From NCBI GenBank assembly GCA_963205315.1, contig CAUJIO010000023.1, positions 83,907 through 147,906 of the forward strand: a DNA stretch of 64,000 bases, in the 5' to 3' direction. Numbering within the stretch: position 1 is the stretch's first letter; each line of letters begins with the position of its first letter. Below are positions 1,723 through 39,803 of this stretch, in pieces. The notes under the pieces were generated by a model, which saw nothing but the letters and a program-made list of their open reading frames with translations, was not told the origin of the DNA and ran no database searches. The stretch is from Pseudomonadota bacterium. Lineage in GTDB: Bacteria; Pseudomonadota; Alphaproteobacteria; Rhizobiales; Aestuariivirgaceae. Position numbers and translations under genes: made by a program.

Positions 1723-2082
1723 TCAGGCAGCCATCATGCGCTCGACCTCGGCGACGAGATCGCGCAGATGGAACGGCTTGGAAAGAACCTTGGCGTCCTT
1801 GGGTGCCTTGGAATCGGGATGAAGAGCCACGGCGGCAAAGCCGGTGATGAACATGATCTTCAGCGCCGGATCGAGTTCGGAGGCGCGGCGCGCCAGTTCG
1901 ATACCGTCCATTTCCGGCATGACGATGTCGGTGAGCAGCAAGTCGAAGGTCGTCTGCTTGATCTCCTCGAAGGCACTCGCGCCCTCGCCGAAGCTCTGCA
2001 CCTGATGGCCAGCCTTCTCCAGCGCTTTCACCAGAAAGCGCCGCATGTCGTCATCGTCTTCTGCAAGAATGATTTTGGCCAT
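1723..2082 (-). CDS. cpdR: CpdR, single-domain response regulator
   Basis: CpdR is a stand-alone receiver protein that, when unphosphorylated, primes ClpXP for regulated proteolysis, including CtrA turnover, in the alphaproteobacterial cell cycle. The 119-residue product starts MAKIILAEDDDDMRRFLVKA. It carries the acidic pocket (EDDDD), the phosphoacceptor Asp52 in LLLTDIVMPEMDG, the switch residues FITGF, and the conserved SKPFHLRDL near the end. The start at 2082 was chosen because homology begins there, although the frame is open further upstream. It is divergent from the N-formylglutamate amidohydrolase gene, an arrangement known from other rhizobiales. The length and near-family-consensus sequence make the call firm. 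Confidence 0.93.
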   Translation of the reverse strand: MAKIILAEDDDDMRRFLVKALEKAGHQVQSFGEGASAFEEIKQTTFDLLLTDIVMPEMDGIELARRASELDPALKIMFITGFAAVALHPDSKAPKDAKVLSKPFHLRDLVAEVERMMAA

Positions 2083-30607: not shown

Positions 30608-32425
<1,818 letters not shown>

Positions 32426-32761
32426 CGTTATGCTTTCTGCCTCCGTCCCGAACATAGAATAGGCCAATTTGCTTGAGCGGGAGGTAAAGGAAGGCGGTGA
32501 ATGGAGGATTTCGTGAATCATTTCAATTCGATCCACAATTTTAACCAAAACTTAAATTACCCGGGCGGCGGTCGGAGCTTCTGGTTCAACCGGGGGCCCC
32601 GATCAGGTATGGTGAAGATTGCGGACCCACCTCCCGGGGGGACAGGCCATTTCGCGTGCAGGCATTCCAACGCCGGTGCGGGAAGACCTTGAGGGGGATG
32701 GAACAGCGGCACGGTGAAAAAAACACCGTCAACCAGTATGTGAGAGTGCGGGAAAAAGACC
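32426..32761. other. Shared divergent regulatory region of the Hpt and GPR-like genes
   Basis: About 336 bases without a gene. It contains the CtrA-type box at 32541-32555, an AT-rich patch around 32517-32560 and then a G/C-rich leader with several short GGGGG/CCC runs up to the GPR-like start at 32762. No clear -10/-35 pair could be fixed by eye. Confidence 0.5.
32541..32555 (+). promoter_or_regulatory. Perfect CtrA box TTAA-N7-TTAA
   Basis: TTAA (32541-32544), seven bases CCAAAAC, TTAA (32552-32555). This is the full consensus for the cell-cycle regulator CtrA. It lies 207 bases before the GPR-like start and 116 bases before the divergent Hpt start, so either or both could be controlled by it. 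Confidence 0.65.
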
Positions 32762-35700
32762 ATGGCAAATACCACCGAGACGCGCCGTCCAGACCGCCGC
32801 CCGGGTGAACCCGAGGCACCGCGTCGCGAAGCCCCGCGCCTGTCCGCCGATCCGGCTCCTGTCCGCAACCGCCCCGCCAATGAGAATGATCCCGGAACGT
32901 CGATGATGCTGGCCAGGTTGCGCCGCCAGCCGTCCTATGCTCCCTATTATGTTGCTTTCGCGCTGTCGCTCGCCTGGGTCGGCGGCTGGTTCTTCATCTT
33001 CTCCAACACACTGTTTGGCACGGCCAACGCTGCCGGCGACATGTCGCACACCATGCAGGGCGTTGCCTTGCTCGTCCTGCCCATCGCGATCATCTGGGTC
33101 ACCGCCTATTTCCTCTGGCGCGCCTCGCAGATGCGCCTCGTTTCGGAAGTGCTGATGCAGTCGGCCATGCGCCTCATCCGCCCGCAGGATGTCGCGACCG
33201 AAGGATTGACGACGATTGCTCAAGCCGTTCGCTCCGAGGTCGACCTGCTGGTCGGCGGCGTCGAACATGCCGTGCAGCGCGCCGCCGTGCTCGAGGAAAT
33301 CGTCCACAAGGAAATCGCCGCCATCGAGCGCGCCTTCGGCGGCAATGAGGAGCGCATCCGCAGCCTCGTCACCGGCATCGAGAACCAGCGAACGGCACTG
33401 CACCAGGCAACGCTTGTCATCAACAACGACGCCAATCCACTGATTGCCCGCCTCGAAGCCAACACCAAGAATCTCGACGGCATCATCGGCACGGCCCATG
33501 ATACGCTGGGCCGCCTCGAATCCGGCCTGCGTGATATGGCTGGCGGCGTCGTCCGCGCGCTCGACGACATGACCGAGCGTGCCAACTCTGCCGGAACAGA
33601 AATCGGCGTCCAGACATCGCACATGGAAGACGTGTCGGTTCAGATGGTCTCCCGCCTGCGCGAATTCTCGCGCCAGCTGACCGGCCAGATCGACGAGTTG
33701 TCCCAGGTCTCCGGCACGCTGCAGAACGACTCCGTCGACTTCAGCCGCTCGATGCAGGACATGGAGTCCAGCATGGCGCAGACCGTCCGCAATTCCATCG
33801 ACCAGCTCACCAACATCAACCAGGACATCGCCCGCACCATCGAGCGCGCCAGCGTGACCTCGGCCGATCAGATCAAGGCCCAGGTCGCCGATTTGGCCGA
33901 GGTCGTGCATAATACCAGCAGCAACCTCGCCTATCATCTGAAGAACTCGACGGACGAGGTGACCTCCTCGATCGAACGCGCCGGACTCGACACCTCGCAG
34001 ATGATCGAACAGAGCCGCAACCTCGTCACTCAGGGGCTGCAGACGGTCGCCACCGACTATCTGGATCGCGTCGCCCACTCGCGCGCTGAACTCGTCTCCT
34101 ATCTGGACTCCTCCGCCCTTGGCGTTTCGGCCGCCATCGAAGACGCCACCGACAACGTGGCAGGCCGCCTCAATGCCGCCGGCACGCAATTTATTGCCGG
34201 CATCGACCAGACCGCCAACTCCCTGCTCTCGGAGCTCGGCTCGATGAGCACCGGGCTGTCCGGCCGCGTCGAAGAAACCACCGGCAAACTGTTTGGCGAA
34301 ATCGGCACGCGCGCCGATTCGATCATCAACCGCCTCGATGATTCGGCTGGCGGCGTCTTCGCCCGTCTCGATGAACAGGCGAACCTCGTCACCTCGCGCG
34401 TCGAGGAGACTGCCAACCGCATTCTCTATTCGATCGAGGACCGCACCAACAATGCAACCTCGCGCGTTGGCGAAACTGCGGCCCAGGTGCTGGCCGCCAT
34501 CGACCAGCAAAATCTCGACTCCGCTGCACGCATTACCGACTCGGCATCGCGCGTTCAGATCGCGATTGCCGACGTTACCGAAAATCTCACGCGCCGCCTC
34601 GATGGCTCGTCGAACGATCTTGTCAATCACGTCGAAGGCGCCATTGCCACGGCCTTGAGCCGCTTTGAGCAGGCATCGACGGAACTCCGCAACCTGGTGG
34701 GCGACACCAGCGCCGAAGTCCTCTCCGCACTCGACCAGCGTTCGCACGACGTTGTCGGCCAGCTCGATCTGGCCATCGGCACTGCCCACGGCAAGATGGA
34801 CGAAACGGCCCGTCTGTTCCAGACGCTCATCAGTCAGACCACGGACAATCTCGAAGACCGCATCGGCGGCTCCTCCGACAGTCTCAACACCATCATGACG
34901 GCGGCGGTGAACAATGCCACCAACCGCCTGGAAGAAGCCTCGAACCTCTTCCACACGCTTGTCGAACAGGCCACCGGCGGCGTCGAAAGCCGCATGAGTT
35001 CGTCCACCGCCCTGCTGCAGGACCAGGTCGCGACGGCACTCTCTGCTGCCACCACGCGCCTCGACGAGACCTCGCGTCTCTTCCAGCAGCTCATCGGCGG
35101 ATCTTCGGATGAACTCGAAGCCCGCATCGACGGCGCTGCGGAACGCATGAGCAGTCATGTCAACACCACCATCACCTCGGTTGCCACGCTGATCGACGGG
35201 GTGTCCAAGACATTCGAGGAAGTGGTCACGGGTTCCGCAGGCGAAATGGAAAGCCGGATCAATCAGGCGGCGGCCACCCTGCAGGGCGTGGTCACCGGTT
35301 CCGCCGGCCAGATGGAAAGCCGCGTCAATGCAGTTGCCTCCACCTTGCAGCAAGTCGTCACCGGCTCGACGCAAGACATGGAAACCAGCATCAACACCGC
35401 TGCCGCAACCTTGCAGCAGGTCCTCGGTGGATCGACTGGCCAAATGGAAGAACGCATCGAGACGGCTGCGGCCACCCTGCAGCAGGTTATTGGCGGTTCC
35501 ACCGGACAGCTTGAAAACCGCATCAACACGGCAACGTCGACCTTGCAGCAGGTCATCGGCGGTTCGACCAGCGAGATGGAAAGCCGCATCAACACCGCGG
35601 CCTCTACGCTGCAGCAGCTCATGGGCGGTGCCGGCGAACAGCTCGAAACCACCATCGACAGCGCCGCCGAGCGTCTCTATGGCCATATGAGTGCCACGGT

Positions 35701-38700
35701 GACCTCCGTTGCCGGATCGATCGACGGCGCCACCAAGACGTTCCAGTCGCTCATCAGCGGCACGGCCGGCGAATTGGTCAGCCGGCTGGACGGCTCGTCG
35801 CGCCAGCTCACCAGCGCTCTCGATACGTCCATCAATGATGCCGTGACCCGCTTCGACGCGGCGACGGCCACCTTCCAGAGTCTGGTCGGCGGTTCGTCCG
35901 AAGAACTCGAACAGCGCATCGACAGCGCCGCCGAGCGTCTCTACGGCCACATGAACGCCACCGTCACCTCCGTCTCGGGCAAAATCGATCAGGTAACGGC
36001 CGCAGTTGCAGGCCAGCTCACCCAGACTCAGGCCGGCCTCTCCAGCCAGCTCCAGTCTGTCAGTTCCTCGGTCAACGACCTCATCGTCACCACCAGCGGC
36101 ACCATCGTCGCCCACCTCAAGGAAACCGCCGAGATCGTCAACCGCGAGATGACCGACTCCGGCCTTGCACTGGCCGAGCGCATCGAGAACTCGGGCGGTG
36201 TCGTCACCGAGAAGCTCATCAGCGCGTCCGACAGCTTCGTCCACCGCGTCGGCAAGGCACGCGAAGATCTTCTCACCCTGCTGAGCAACTCCGCCAATGA
36301 CGTGACCAAGCGTCTGGAGGAAACCTCGACGCAACTCTACAGCAGGCTTGACGGCACCACCGCCTCGATGACCGGCCAGCTGGAACAGACCGCATCGAAA
36401 CTCTACACCCGCCTCGACCAGGTCTCGGCCCACATGGGCGGCGAGCTCGAGCAGACGGCCCAGCGTATCACCGATTACATCAACGCCACGACGTCGGATG
36501 CCACCAGCAAGGTTGCCGTCACCACCGACCGGTTGACGCTGCAGCTTGACCATTCTTCCAAGCAGATCGGCGAACTGCTCGACCAGACCTCCGAGCGCCT
36601 GGGCACCCAGCTCGACTCGGCAACAACCGAGCTGGCCAACATCTTCGGCAACGGCACCGAGATGCTGACCAAGCGCCTTGATGGCACGTCCAGCATGCTG
36701 TCGGATCTGTTCACCTCGCAGACCGGCAAGCTCTCGACCCAATTGCAGCAGACCTCGTCCGGCCTCTCCAGCCTGTTCTCGAGCAACGCCGAACAGCTGT
36801 CGCAAACCCTCGACCAGACGTGGAGCAGCCTCTCGGGGCTCTTCACCAGCAAGACCCAGACTCTCACCGAACAGCTTGGCCAGACCTCGGCCGAAGTCTC
36901 CGCCCTGTTCTCCGCCAACACCCGGATGATGACGGAGCAGATCGACCAGACAGCTTCGGAAATGACCAACAGCTTCGCCGAGACCGCCGTGCGCGTCACC
37001 CGCCAGGTCAACGAAGTGAACCAGTTGATGGCCCAGCGATTGGAGAAGACGTCGGCCGACGTCACCAGCCAGCTCGACTCGGCCGGCAACTCGGTGCTCT
37101 CGCGGCTCGATCAGACCGCGCGCGATCTGGGCCAGCGCTTCGACGTCGCCAGCCACCTGCTCGAACGCGTCTCGGGCGATATCTCGGGCAAGCTCGAAGG
37201 CTCCAGCCAGAAGTTCGCCGAAATCATCGACACGGCATCGAGCCAGATTCTCACCGATCTCGGCAAGGCCAGCAATGCCTTCTCCGAGGGCCTTGGCCAG
37301 ACGACGATGCAGATCACCGGCCGCCTCGAACAGGACTCCGGCCTGCTGATCGACCGCATCGATCAGGCGGCTGGCAAGCTCGAGCAGGTTTCGGTTTCGA
37401 CCGCGGTCAAGCTCGACGAAGCCAACCGCAAGTTCTCGAAGCACGTTGAAACCGCCAACACCTACCTCGCGGATCAACTGGCGACGGCGGCCGGCGTGAT
37501 GGACGAGCGTATCGAAACCATCTCGATGCAGCTCACCGGCAAGCTCGAAACCACCAGCTCGCGCGTCTCCGAGCGTCTGGATGATGTGACGCTGCTGGTC
37601 GAACGTTCGCTCGACAAGTTCAACGGCGAAATGGAGCGCGTGCTCGGCAACCGCAAGACGGCGCTCGACTCGCTCATCAACGATGCCGCCAAGCGCGCCA
37701 CCGAGATCGACGCGGTCATGACCAGCTACATGAACCTGATCGAGGACTCTCTCTCGGCCTCGGAAGCGCGCGCCAAGGAGATCGGACGCATAATCGCGGA
37801 GCAGTCAACACTCGCCAGCCGCAACCTCGAGCAGGAAATCGAGAAGCTTGAATCGGCTTCCGGCGGCCAGATCAGCCAGGCCGCGCGCATGCTGCGCGAT
37901 CAGCATGAGCGTGCCATGGCGGCAATGAACGAGATGCTCTCCTCCACTGCCACCGACTTCCAGCAAACGGCGCAGGACATGCGCATCACCGCCCAGCAGG
38001 TGGTGAAGGACATCGATGCCGCCCGCAATGAGCTGAAGCGCTCGATCCTCGAACTGCCCGAAGAAACCCGCAGCAATGCCGATGCCATGCGCCGCGTTGT
38101 CTCCGACCAGATCAACGCGCTGAACGCCCTCGCCGACGTGGTGAAGCGCCAGACCGGCACGCTCGACATCTCGGGGCCAGGTGTGTCTCTCAGTCGAAGT
38201 TACAGGGATCCCTCACCGGGAAAAGCTGAGGGCGCCATGGTTTCTGCTCCGCTGACCGGAACCATGAGCGCCCAGGGAATGATCGCCGAGCGGAGCGAGA
38301 AAGCCGTCGAAAGCCTGTCGATCAGGGAGCGGCTCTCCGCCCCTGACCGCCAGCCGGAGGCAAAGCCCGCCAGGACAAAATCGGCACCGACCCCGCTGCC
38401 GCAACTGTCCAAGGACATGGACACGCTGGTGCAGAAACTGCACGCCGCCGCACGCGACATCGTCGAGGCCGTCGATGGCAGCCTGCCGCGCGATATCGAG
38501 AAGAAATTCTCGGGCGGCGAACGCGACGTCTACACGCGCCGTGTCTTTGAGGGCCGTGCCAAGCGCCTGGAACGCACCATCGGCGAACGCTATCGCGCCG
38601 ACCGGCTGATGCGCTCGCGGGTCGACAGCTACATCCGGCTGTTCGAGCGGTTGCTCGACACCATGAACGCAGCTGCCGATGGCGAGAAACTGGTGGAAGC

Positions 38701-38776
38701 CTGCCTGGCCTCGGATTCCGGCCGCATCTATGTCATGCTGGCTGAAATCGCCGGACGCATTCCTCCTCAAACCTGA
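32762..38776 (+). CDS. Giant coiled-coil membrane protein, GPR/RgsE-like growth pole ring protein
   Basis: The 2004-residue protein has a charged, proline-rich cytoplasmic N-terminus (1-60), two transmembrane helices (about 62-82 and 100-120) with a short periplasmic loop, then some 1600 residues of helical, Ser/Thr/Gln-rich apolipoprotein-like repeats. A short proline-rich linker (about 1810-1880) and a conserved helical C-terminal domain (LSKDMDTLVQKLHAAARDIV to AEIAGRIPPQT) end it. This architecture and size match GPR of Agrobacterium and RgsE of Sinorhizobium, which form a ring at the growing pole and direct polar growth. Residues 821-974 are seven 22-residue repeats. A CtrA box lies upstream; dgcN follows after one base. 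Function is by family analogy. Confidence 0.8.
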   Translation: MANTTETRRPDRRPGEPEAPRREAPRLSADPAPVRNRPANENDPGTSMMLARLRRQPSYAPYYVAFALSLAWVGGWFFIFSNTLFGTANAAGDMSHTMQGVALLVLPIAIIWVTAYFLWRASQMRLVSEVLMQSAMRLIRPQDVATEGLTTIAQAVRSEVDLLVGGVEHAVQRAAVLEEIVHKEIAAIERAFGGNEERIRSLVTGIENQRTALHQATLVINNDANPLIARLEANTKNLDGIIGTAHDTLGRLESGLRDMAGGVVRALDDMTERANSAGTEIGVQTSHMEDVSVQMVSRLREFSRQLTGQIDELSQVSGTLQNDSVDFSRSMQDMESSMAQTVRNSIDQLTNINQDIARTIERASVTSADQIKAQVADLAEVVHNTSSNLAYHLKNSTDEVTSSIERAGLDTSQMIEQSRNLVTQGLQTVATDYLDRVAHSRAELVSYLDSSALGVSAAIEDATDNVAGRLNAAGTQFIAGIDQTANSLLSELGSMSTGLSGRVEETTGKLFGEIGTRADSIINRLDDSAGGVFARLDEQANLVTSRVEETANRILYSIEDRTNNATSRVGETAAQVLAAIDQQNLDSAARITDSASRVQIAIADVTENLTRRLDGSSNDLVNHVEGAIATALSRFEQASTELRNLVGDTSAEVLSALDQRSHDVVGQLDLAIGTAHGKMDETARLFQTLISQTTDNLEDRIGGSSDSLNTIMTAAVNNATNRLEEASNLFHTLVEQATGGVESRMSSSTALLQDQVATALSAATTRLDETSRLFQQLIGGSSDELEARIDGAAERMSSHVNTTITSVATLIDGVSKTFEEVVTGSAGEMESRINQAAATLQGVVTGSAGQMESRVNAVASTLQQVVTGSTQDMETSINTAAATLQQVLGGSTGQMEERIETAAATLQQVIGGSTGQLENRINTATSTLQQVIGGSTSEMESRINTAASTLQQLMGGAGEQLETTIDSAAERLYGHMSATVTSVAGSIDGATKTFQSLISGTAGELVSRLDGSSRQLTSALDTSINDAVTRFDAATATFQSLVGGSSEELEQRIDSAAERLYGHMNATVTSVSGKIDQVTAAVAGQLTQTQAGLSSQLQSVSSSVNDLIVTTSGTIVAHLKETAEIVNREMTDSGLALAERIENSGGVVTEKLISASDSFVHRVGKAREDLLTLLSNSANDVTKRLEETSTQLYSRLDGTTASMTGQLEQTASKLYTRLDQVSAHMGGELEQTAQRITDYINATTSDATSKVAVTTDRLTLQLDHSSKQIGELLDQTSERLGTQLDSATTELANIFGNGTEMLTKRLDGTSSMLSDLFTSQTGKLSTQLQQTSSGLSSLFSSNAEQLSQTLDQTWSSLSGLFTSKTQTLTEQLGQTSAEVSALFSANTRMMTEQIDQTASEMTNSFAETAVRVTRQVNEVNQLMAQRLEKTSADVTSQLDSAGNSVLSRLDQTARDLGQRFDVASHLLERVSGDISGKLEGSSQKFAEIIDTASSQILTDLGKASNAFSEGLGQTTMQITGRLEQDSGLLIDRIDQAAGKLEQVSVSTAVKLDEANRKFSKHVETANTYLADQLATAAGVMDERIETISMQLTGKLETTSSRVSERLDDVTLLVERSLDKFNGEMERVLGNRKTALDSLINDAAKRATEIDAVMTSYMNLIEDSLSASEARAKEIGRIIAEQSTLASRNLEQEIEKLESASGGQISQAARMLRDQHERAMAAMNEMLSSTATDFQQTAQDMRITAQQVVKDIDAARNELKRSILELPEETRSNADAMRRVVSDQINALNALADVVKRQTGTLDISGPGVSLSRSYRDPSPGKAEGAMVSAPLTGTMSAQGMIAERSEKAVESLSIRERLSAPDRQPEAKPARTKSAPTPLPQLSKDMDTLVQKLHAAARDIVEAVDGSLPRDIEKKFSGGERDVYTRRVFEGRAKRLERTIGERYRADRLMRSRVDSYIRLFERLLDTMNAAADGEKLVEACLASDSGRIYVMLAEIAGRIPPQT
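35222..35683 (+). repeat. Seven tandem 66-bp (22-residue) repeats in the giant coiled-coil gene
   Basis: The translated units follow the pattern VxxGSxxxMExxINxAAxTLQQ. Seven consecutive units of exactly 22 residues run from residue 821 to 974; units 2 to 6 are the most alike and the last drifts toward the neighbouring sequence. A 22-residue helical period is the one known from apolipoproteins. Confidence 0.85.
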
Positions 38777-38777
38777 G

Positions 38778-39803
38778 ATGACGGGCCAGCCTATGGAAAT
38801 TGCCAAACCCTATCTGCTCTTCCTGGGCGACGTGCAGGACCAGCTGGCGGCGAAGACAGCCATGGGGATCGTCGACTGGCGGCCGGAATGGTGCGTCGGC
38901 CAGATCAGGCTGGAGGGCTGCAAAGCCGATACCGGCCTGCCCGACATGTCGATCTCCGAAGCGGTGGCCAAAGGCGCCAAGACCATGGTGGTGGGCGTTG
39001 CCAATGCCGGCGGCGTCCTGCCGGATCACTGGGTTTACGAGATCGTTGCCGCCTTGCATGCCGGCCTCGATGTCGCCACCGGCCTGCACAAACGCCTGTC
39101 GTCATTTCCGCGCATCGCCGATGCCGCGACGCTCAACGGCCGCAAGCTGCATGATGTGCGCTTCTCGGATGTGAACTTTTCCACCGGCAAGGGCACCAAG
39201 CGCGGCGGCATGCGCCTGCTCACCGTCGGCACCGATTGTTCGGTTGGCAAGAAATACACGGCCCTGGCCATCGACCGCGAAATGCACCGCCAGTCGATGA
39301 GTTCGGACTTCCGCGCCACCGGCCAGACCGGCGTGCTGATTTCAGGCCGGGGGCTGGCGCTCGATGCCGTCGTGGCGGATTTCATCTCCGGCGCCGCCGA
39401 GTGGATCAGTCCCGAAAACGATCCTGGCCACTGGGACATCATCGAGGGCCAGGGTTCGCTGTTTCACCCCTCGTTTGCCGGCGTCACGCTCGGATTGCTG
39501 CACGGCGCCCAACCCGACGCCTTCGTCGTCTGTCATGAGCCGACACGGTCCACCATGCGCGGCGTCAGCCATCCGCTTCCCAGCATTCAGCAGGTCATTG
39601 ACCGCACCATTCTCGAGGGCCAGCTCACCAATCCCAAGATCGCCTGCATCGGCATCGCCATCAACACCGAACATCTCTCCGACGAAGTCGCCCGCACCTA
39701 TCTGAAGGAAACCGGCGAGGCTCACGGCCTTCCCTGTGTCGATCCGATTCGAACCGGTGTCGAACCGATTGTCGCCGAATTGATCCGCCGCTACGGCCGC
39801 TGA
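38778..39803 (+). CDS. dgcN: DgcN, DUF1611 family N-acetyltransferase
   Basis: DgcN-type DUF1611 proteins are reported to N-acetylate D-glutamate as the first step of a D-Glu catabolic route. The 341-residue protein has the family's opening KPYLLFLGDVQDQLAAKTAMGI, a P-loop-like GTDCSVGKKYTAL near residue 150, EGQGSLFHPSFAGVTLGLLHG and a VCHEPTRSTMRG segment. It is 1 base after the giant coiled-coil gene and 1 base before dgcA, so all three could share a transcript. An internal ATG at 38793 is an alternative start. Activity is by family analogy. Confidence 0.85.
   Translation: MTGQPMEIAKPYLLFLGDVQDQLAAKTAMGIVDWRPEWCVGQIRLEGCKADTGLPDMSISEAVAKGAKTMVVGVANAGGVLPDHWVYEIVAALHAGLDVATGLHKRLSSFPRIADAATLNGRKLHDVRFSDVNFSTGKGTKRGGMRLLTVGTDCSVGKKYTALAIDREMHRQSMSSDFRATGQTGVLISGRGLALDAVVADFISGAAEWISPENDPGHWDIIEGQGSLFHPSFAGVTLGLLHGAQPDAFVVCHEPTRSTMRGVSHPLPSIQQVIDRTILEGQLTNPKIACIGIAINTEHLSDEVARTYLKETGEAHGLPCVDPIRTGVEPIVAELIRRYGR

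Follow-up and report, generated by a model that had tools for sequence, protein, structure and literature searches.

Does the gene for an organiser of polar growth stand under the direct control of the cell-cycle regulator CtrA? The question is raised by a 64-kb stretch of contig CAUJIO010000023.1, from the genome of an Aestuariivirga species (the window below means this whole stretch), in which a 2,004-aa open reading frame resembling the growth pole ring protein GPR of Agrobacterium, known as RgsE in Sinorhizobium meliloti, follows a perfect TTAA-N7-TTAA box. Judged from homology and conservation, the protein is a GPR/RgsE orthologue and the box is probably a CtrA site that would tie gpr transcription to the cell cycle. 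A pattern scan and the open reading frames confirmed the arrangement given in the original prediction, in that the gpr ATG begins 207 bases past the last base of the box and the box stands in the intergenic region common to gpr and a divergent Hpt gene. The features concerned are as follows.

32762 to 38776, plus strand: gpr, encoding the GPR/RgsE orthologue of 2,004 aa (open reading frame, PF01442, homology at both ends).
32541 to 32555, plus strand: CtrA-type box TTAACCAAAACTTAA, a putative CtrA site (pattern scan, conservation).
32509 to 32535, no strand assigned: genus-conserved block left of the box, TTTcc.gAatcg.TTCAATt.g.TCca (genus comparison).
32515 to 32519, plus strand: GANTC site, the CcrM methylation motif (genus comparison).
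32583 to 32589, plus strand: conserved block GGTTCAA, predicted -35 region of the gpr promoter (conservation; prediction).
32606 to 32613, plus strand: conserved block GGTATGGT, predicted -10 region of the gpr promoter (conservation; prediction).
32054 to 32425, minus strand: divergent Hpt phosphotransfer protein of 123 aa (PF01627, 1.2e-11).
1723 to 2082, minus strand: cpdR (NF046022, 203.9 bits against a cut-off of 180).

The layout of the protein comprises two N-terminal hydrophobic segments, a long coiled coil and a conserved C-terminal domain. Pfam matched PF01442 in eight stretches over the coiled coil (216.7 bits), and the hydrophobic segments were placed by reading at about residues 61-84 and 99-119, a crude scan having flagged the first only. 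When the protein was compared with the orthologue of Sinorhizobium sp. BG8, identity was 29% in the N-terminal part (197 aa, 6.8e-21) and 28.5% in the C-terminal part (291 aa, 8.6e-29). The N-terminal 250 residues matched 58 of 61 genomes, the genome of the window included, and the C-terminal domain was matched in 48 of the 61. A profile of 18 diverse GPR N-termini, among them the window protein, matched 247 of 249 genomes of the order, nearly always once each, and 60 of the 61 genomes of family f23, which was recognised as Rhizobiaceae from pieces of two of its genomes, which were identical to plasmid sequence from Sinorhizobium sp. BG8 and Hoeflea sp. IMCC20628 (a third piece was unmatched). 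Furthermore, an Hpt gene was the divergent neighbour of gpr in 54 of the 57 genomes with a usable GPR locus; the remaining three gave no Hpt match on the gpr contig. The accessible text on Agrobacterium GPR (Atu1348) describes a protein of 2,115 aa in which two membrane segments are predicted near the N-terminus and the C-terminus is required for function (PMC8262873), and that on S. meliloti RgsE (SMc00190) a homologue of 2,089 aa (PMC7327166). The window protein is like both in its size, two N-terminal membrane segments, PF01442 repeats and C-terminal domain, but its identity to the Rhizobiaceae proteins compared is about 22% over the length and 28-33% at the ends. Matches to the ZorA and ZapG models fell below their cut-offs and were read as coiled-coil composition, as was a match to LA_3659 (NF047516), even though its 45.3 bits exceeded the cut-off of 36. 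Homology at both ends together with synteny supported the GPR/RgsE identity that had been proposed from the architecture.

A separate observation concerns the C-terminal domain. In the A. litoralis group (G001, G011, G018, G019, G029 and G032) GPR is about 185 residues shorter than the window protein at its C-terminal end, the shortened proteins carry a common GRGK.xTKN-like tail, and a mandelate-racemase-like (MR_MLE) gene lies within about 20 bases after gpr; in the window the domain is present and a DUF1611 gene (38679-39803) lies between gpr and the MR_MLE gene. No match to the domain was found anywhere in these six genomes at E<=0.001, and seven further genomes of the 61 were likewise without one (G006, G009, G010, G026, G035, G041 and G057). 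This natural loss is notable because C-terminal deletions of Agrobacterium GPR blocked complementation, according to the consulted part of PMC8262873. Weak second N-terminal GPR-like matches were also seen in frames of about 690-725 aa in G001, G011, G018 and G019, which may represent a short paralogue.

The box was the sole TTAA-N7-TTAA in the window (shuffle mean 0.05; 5 of 100 shuffles contained one), and no TTAA pair with a spacing of 6 was found there. Genome-wide, however, the exact motif was found 31 times and its reversed control 19 times, so that a single exact box is weak evidence and conservation was needed to decide. We therefore compared 37 genomes of Aestuariivirga, including A. 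litoralis KCTC 52945, of which 34 had a usable GPR upstream region (two lacked a GPR N-terminal match and one was cut at a contig edge). The results revealed that all 34 loci carry TTAACCA, starting 177-223 bp upstream of the chosen ATG of gpr, and that the site agrees with TTAA-N7-TTAA exactly in 11, with one mismatch in 21 and with two mismatches in 2. Mean pairwise identity in an alignment anchored on TTAACCA was 0.82 in the box and 0.66 at +15 to +18; on the gpr side it was 0.75 at +41 to +49 and 0.56 at +61 to +73, on the Hpt side 0.68 at -32 to -6 and 0.50 at -5 to -1, and elsewhere 0.32-0.36 (0.33 in the gap neighbouring the box). The right-hand blocks, GGTTCAA followed by GGTATG or GGTTAATG, resemble a -35/-10 pair directed toward gpr. 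In addition, 26 of the 34 genomes had a GANTC site in the 45 bp that precede the box, the eight exceptions being the six members of the A. litoralis group along with G026 and G006; many relatives carry the GANTC-bearing block, GAATCGATTC, directly beside the box.

The comparison was extended beyond the genus by taking the gpr upstream region from each of 103 genomes in 49 families, mostly one per genus, drawn down the list of GPR-profile matches and from further searches; 101 of the regions were at least 380 bp long. Outside the genus the gpr start was chosen by rule as the nearest in-frame ATGGC or else ATG (three genomes were without a start), and distances carry errors accordingly. We found an exact TTAA-N7-TTAA within 600 bp of the gpr start in 19 of 101 genomes and in 12 of the 49 families, and 15 of these 19 boxes fell at -300 to -175, a zone set after the positions had been seen. 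Control spacings of 3-6 and 8-12 gave 0-8 genomes in the same sample, and 200 dinucleotide-preserving shuffles gave an exact box in a mean of 0.93 genomes and a maximum of 4. When one mismatch was allowed in the zone from -330 to -140 and Rhizobiaceae were counted apart, a site was present in 37 of 99 genomes and 21 of 48 families; other spacings gave one in 3-15 genomes and 3-12 families. A matrix built from the genus sites gave a mixed result on the first 23 outgroup genomes: eight reached p<=0.01 against 100 shuffles each (0.00 for G040, G046, G048, G051, G053 and G041; 0.01 for G059 and G037) and 15 did not, and some best sites (G046, G051) lay far off the usual place. The fixed-distance test was clearer than this, though its zone was chosen after the positions had been seen. 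A gapless promoter profile of 36 other-family sequences showed almost nothing conserved beyond the box, and -35/-10-like blocks were visible within Aestuariivirga and Rhizobiaceae only. Thus conservation of the box spans the genus and extends to some of the other families, at frequencies above those of shuffles and control spacings. The original prediction had placed the polar growth machinery under CtrA in this lineage in particular; the conserved CtrA-type box bears out part of that proposal, and the occurrence of an exact box in 12 of the 49 families led us to reject wiring special to the lineage.

Rhizobiaceae were analysed separately, with 30 of the 60 GPR matches examined. An exact TTAA-N7-TTAA was present in 4 of the 30, Sinorhizobium sp. 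BG8 among them, and a site with at most one mismatch in 27. For 19 of the 30 sequences, in which the site starts with TTAAC and has TT at +11/+12, an alignment gave a mean information of 0.97 at +41 to +49 and 1.08 at +61 to +73 on the gpr side, against 0.04-0.07 bits on the Hpt side (0.07 at -32 to -6), where only the five bases adjoining the box reached 0.54. The -35/-10-like blocks lie equally far from the box in Rhizobiaceae and in Aestuariivirga, and this agreement between two families is our main reason for assigning the box to gpr. It follows that the motif is likely to be part of an old gpr promoter and not of one lineage's.

We wanted to know whether the motif has the company expected of a CtrA site. 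The genome of the window encodes CtrA (NF045991, 424.2 bits, above the cut-off of 350), ChpT from a neighbouring gene (NF046018, 249 bits against 240) and GcrA (177.9 bits, far above the cut-off of a model that also matches a Sulfolobus control genome). The cpdR gene near 2 kb, cited earlier as a hint of CtrA wiring, is itself genuine by its model match, but it lies 30 kb from the gpr promoter with no direct bearing on it, and was dropped as evidence for gpr control. A pattern derived from the gpr site and its relatives, TTAACCA-N4-TTHA, occurred four times in the 4.67-Mb genome and not at all in its control, and TTAACCA-N4-TTAA had 22 matches, eight of them at gpr, against one for the control in eight genus genomes chosen for an exact gpr box. 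Another copy stood at a gene for a winged-helix response regulator, both in the window genome, where a type III secretion/flagellar-type ATPase gene lies beside it, and in G001; this regulator is presumably of the FtcR/Rem-like kind. A further copy was found in G018 and G030 in the interval between hemE and PPPase (hemE was tested in G018 and PPPase in G030, the other flanks being assigned by reading); in alphaproteobacteria this interval is the region of the replication origin, which CtrA classically binds. The locus thus resembles the alphaproteobacterial CtrA regulon in its motif, in the presence of CtrA, ChpT, CpdR and GcrA, and in the FtcR-like and hemE/PPPase copies. It is also like the podJ and mipZ promoters of Caulobacter, in which, in the accessible text of PMC4287350, polarity and division genes have CtrA, DnaA and GANTC motifs, in that the region of a polarity gene combines a CtrA-type box with GANTC sites; gene, distances and organism differ, and GANTC is present in 26 of 34 Aestuariivirga genomes only. 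As a separate observation, several genus genomes repeat TTAACCA-N4-TTAA close to yebC and close to a nitroreductase-type gene, and these genes may be unrecognised CtrA targets.

Several findings weigh against CtrA acting at gpr. At -330 to -140, 62 of the 99 other-family genomes were without a site of at most one mismatch, and 37 of the 49 families had no exact box in any sampled genome. Among the 30 Rhizobiaceae an exact spacing of 8 was found in 16, against 4 for a spacing of 7, and the common form there, TTAACCTTATGTTTA(A), fits a spacing of 8 exactly. The 3.7-kb locus around ctrA holds neither TTAA-N7-TTAA nor TTAACCA, and some of the motif copies stand at the nitroreductase gene and yebC, which are not classical CtrA targets. 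In S. meliloti, SMc00190 is unnamed in the main text of the CtrA study (PMC4433202), the ChIP-seq (chromatin immunoprecipitation sequencing) peak tables of which lay outside our search. Finally, the window box begins about 78 bp before the predicted gpr start, further upstream than classical activating CtrA sites and not at -35 as in the CtrA regulon, a distance that is unusual because CtrA sites of Caulobacter activate near -35 and repress over -10 (PMC4287350, consulted in part), although such placing is a usual trait of CtrA sites and does not define them. This distance, together with the asymmetry of the genus consensus (TTAACCAAa..TT.A), would suit a conserved promoter element of another factor, MucR-like or an unknown regulator, that is CtrA-like in look only. 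The preference for a spacing of 7 in the order sample and the recurrence of the same motif at the FtcR-like and hemE/PPPase sites speak against this, and we consider it distinctly unlikely. Chance is a further explanation, since AT-rich intergenic DNA often holds TTAA pairs and the genome-wide counts of 31 and 19 would fit it; with the motif conserved in 34 of 34 genus loci and in excess over shuffles and other spacings across the order, this origin is extremely improbable and was rejected.

It was also suggested at the outset that the box could serve the divergent Hpt gene, gpr merely sharing the intergenic region. The strong conservation of the Hpt side in Aestuariivirga (mean information 1.10 at -32 to -6) and the divergent gene order kept in 54 of 57 genomes are consistent with this and count against control of gpr alone, as does the smaller standard deviation of the box-to-Hpt distance in Rhizobiaceae (53 against 67 for box to gpr, 20 loci) and in family f6 (6 against 18, four loci). 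The box-to-gpr distance, however, varied less than the box-to-Hpt distance in the genus (13 against 90, 24 loci), in family f14 (4 against 126, four loci) and across the remaining families taken together (38 against 151, 28 loci). Such distances are weak evidence either way, since a rule had set the gpr start outside the genus and the Hpt gene was anchored by a loose motif, which could be located in 106 of 165 loci and gave at least one plainly wrong value. Greater weight falls on the 19 Rhizobiaceae sequences, with conservation on the gpr side and none on the Hpt side beyond the five bases adjoining the box. Service to the Hpt gene in place of gpr was thereby weakened and appears rather unlikely, and with both sides conserved in Aestuariivirga the box may act on the Hpt gene as well as on gpr. 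The small Hpt gene itself, kept divergent from gpr across the order, may be functionally tied to GPR.

In the literature searched, which left supplements and most subscription papers outside, no report of CtrA control of GPR/RgsE was found. The consulted text of PMC9022086, PMC8546619 and PMC9731437 mentions the growth pole ring and CtrA only separately, and the accessible literature on GPR (Atu1348) and RgsE (SMc00190) describes no promoter control for either. A CtrA site at rgsE may sit unnoticed in an existing S. meliloti table.

Under CtrA control of gpr, phosphorylated CtrA (CtrA~P) would bind the box, and the gpr transcript, to judge from the conserved -35/-10-like blocks, would start near 32619, about 78 bp past the position at which the box begins. 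CtrA would then act from upstream, most likely as an activator, raising GPR late in the cycle, before the new pole must grow. Our best guess is class-I-like activation, the alternatives being a second start closer to the box or a function at the Hpt gene, on which the same box may also act. In those Aestuariivirga genomes that have them, the GANTC sites beside the box would bring in a further input, through methylation that depends on replication. For the order as a whole, we regard the chances as evenly balanced that the ancestral Hyphomicrobiales gpr promoter carried a CtrA site, that the supply of the ring founding each growth pole is timed directly by the CtrA phosphorelay, with GANTC methylation as an input in part of Aestuariivirga, and that the site was lost in some families.

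GPR dose matters, because very slight over-expression gives extra poles and cells without GPR are spherical, as stated in the consulted part of PMC8262873. For the timing of the birth of a new growth pole in polarly growing rhizobia, a conserved CtrA-type site in the gpr promoter region would offer a direct and testable link by which the cell-cycle phosphorelay could govern pole formation. If this holds, the unipolar growth of the order would be wired into the division cycle through transcription of its organiser.

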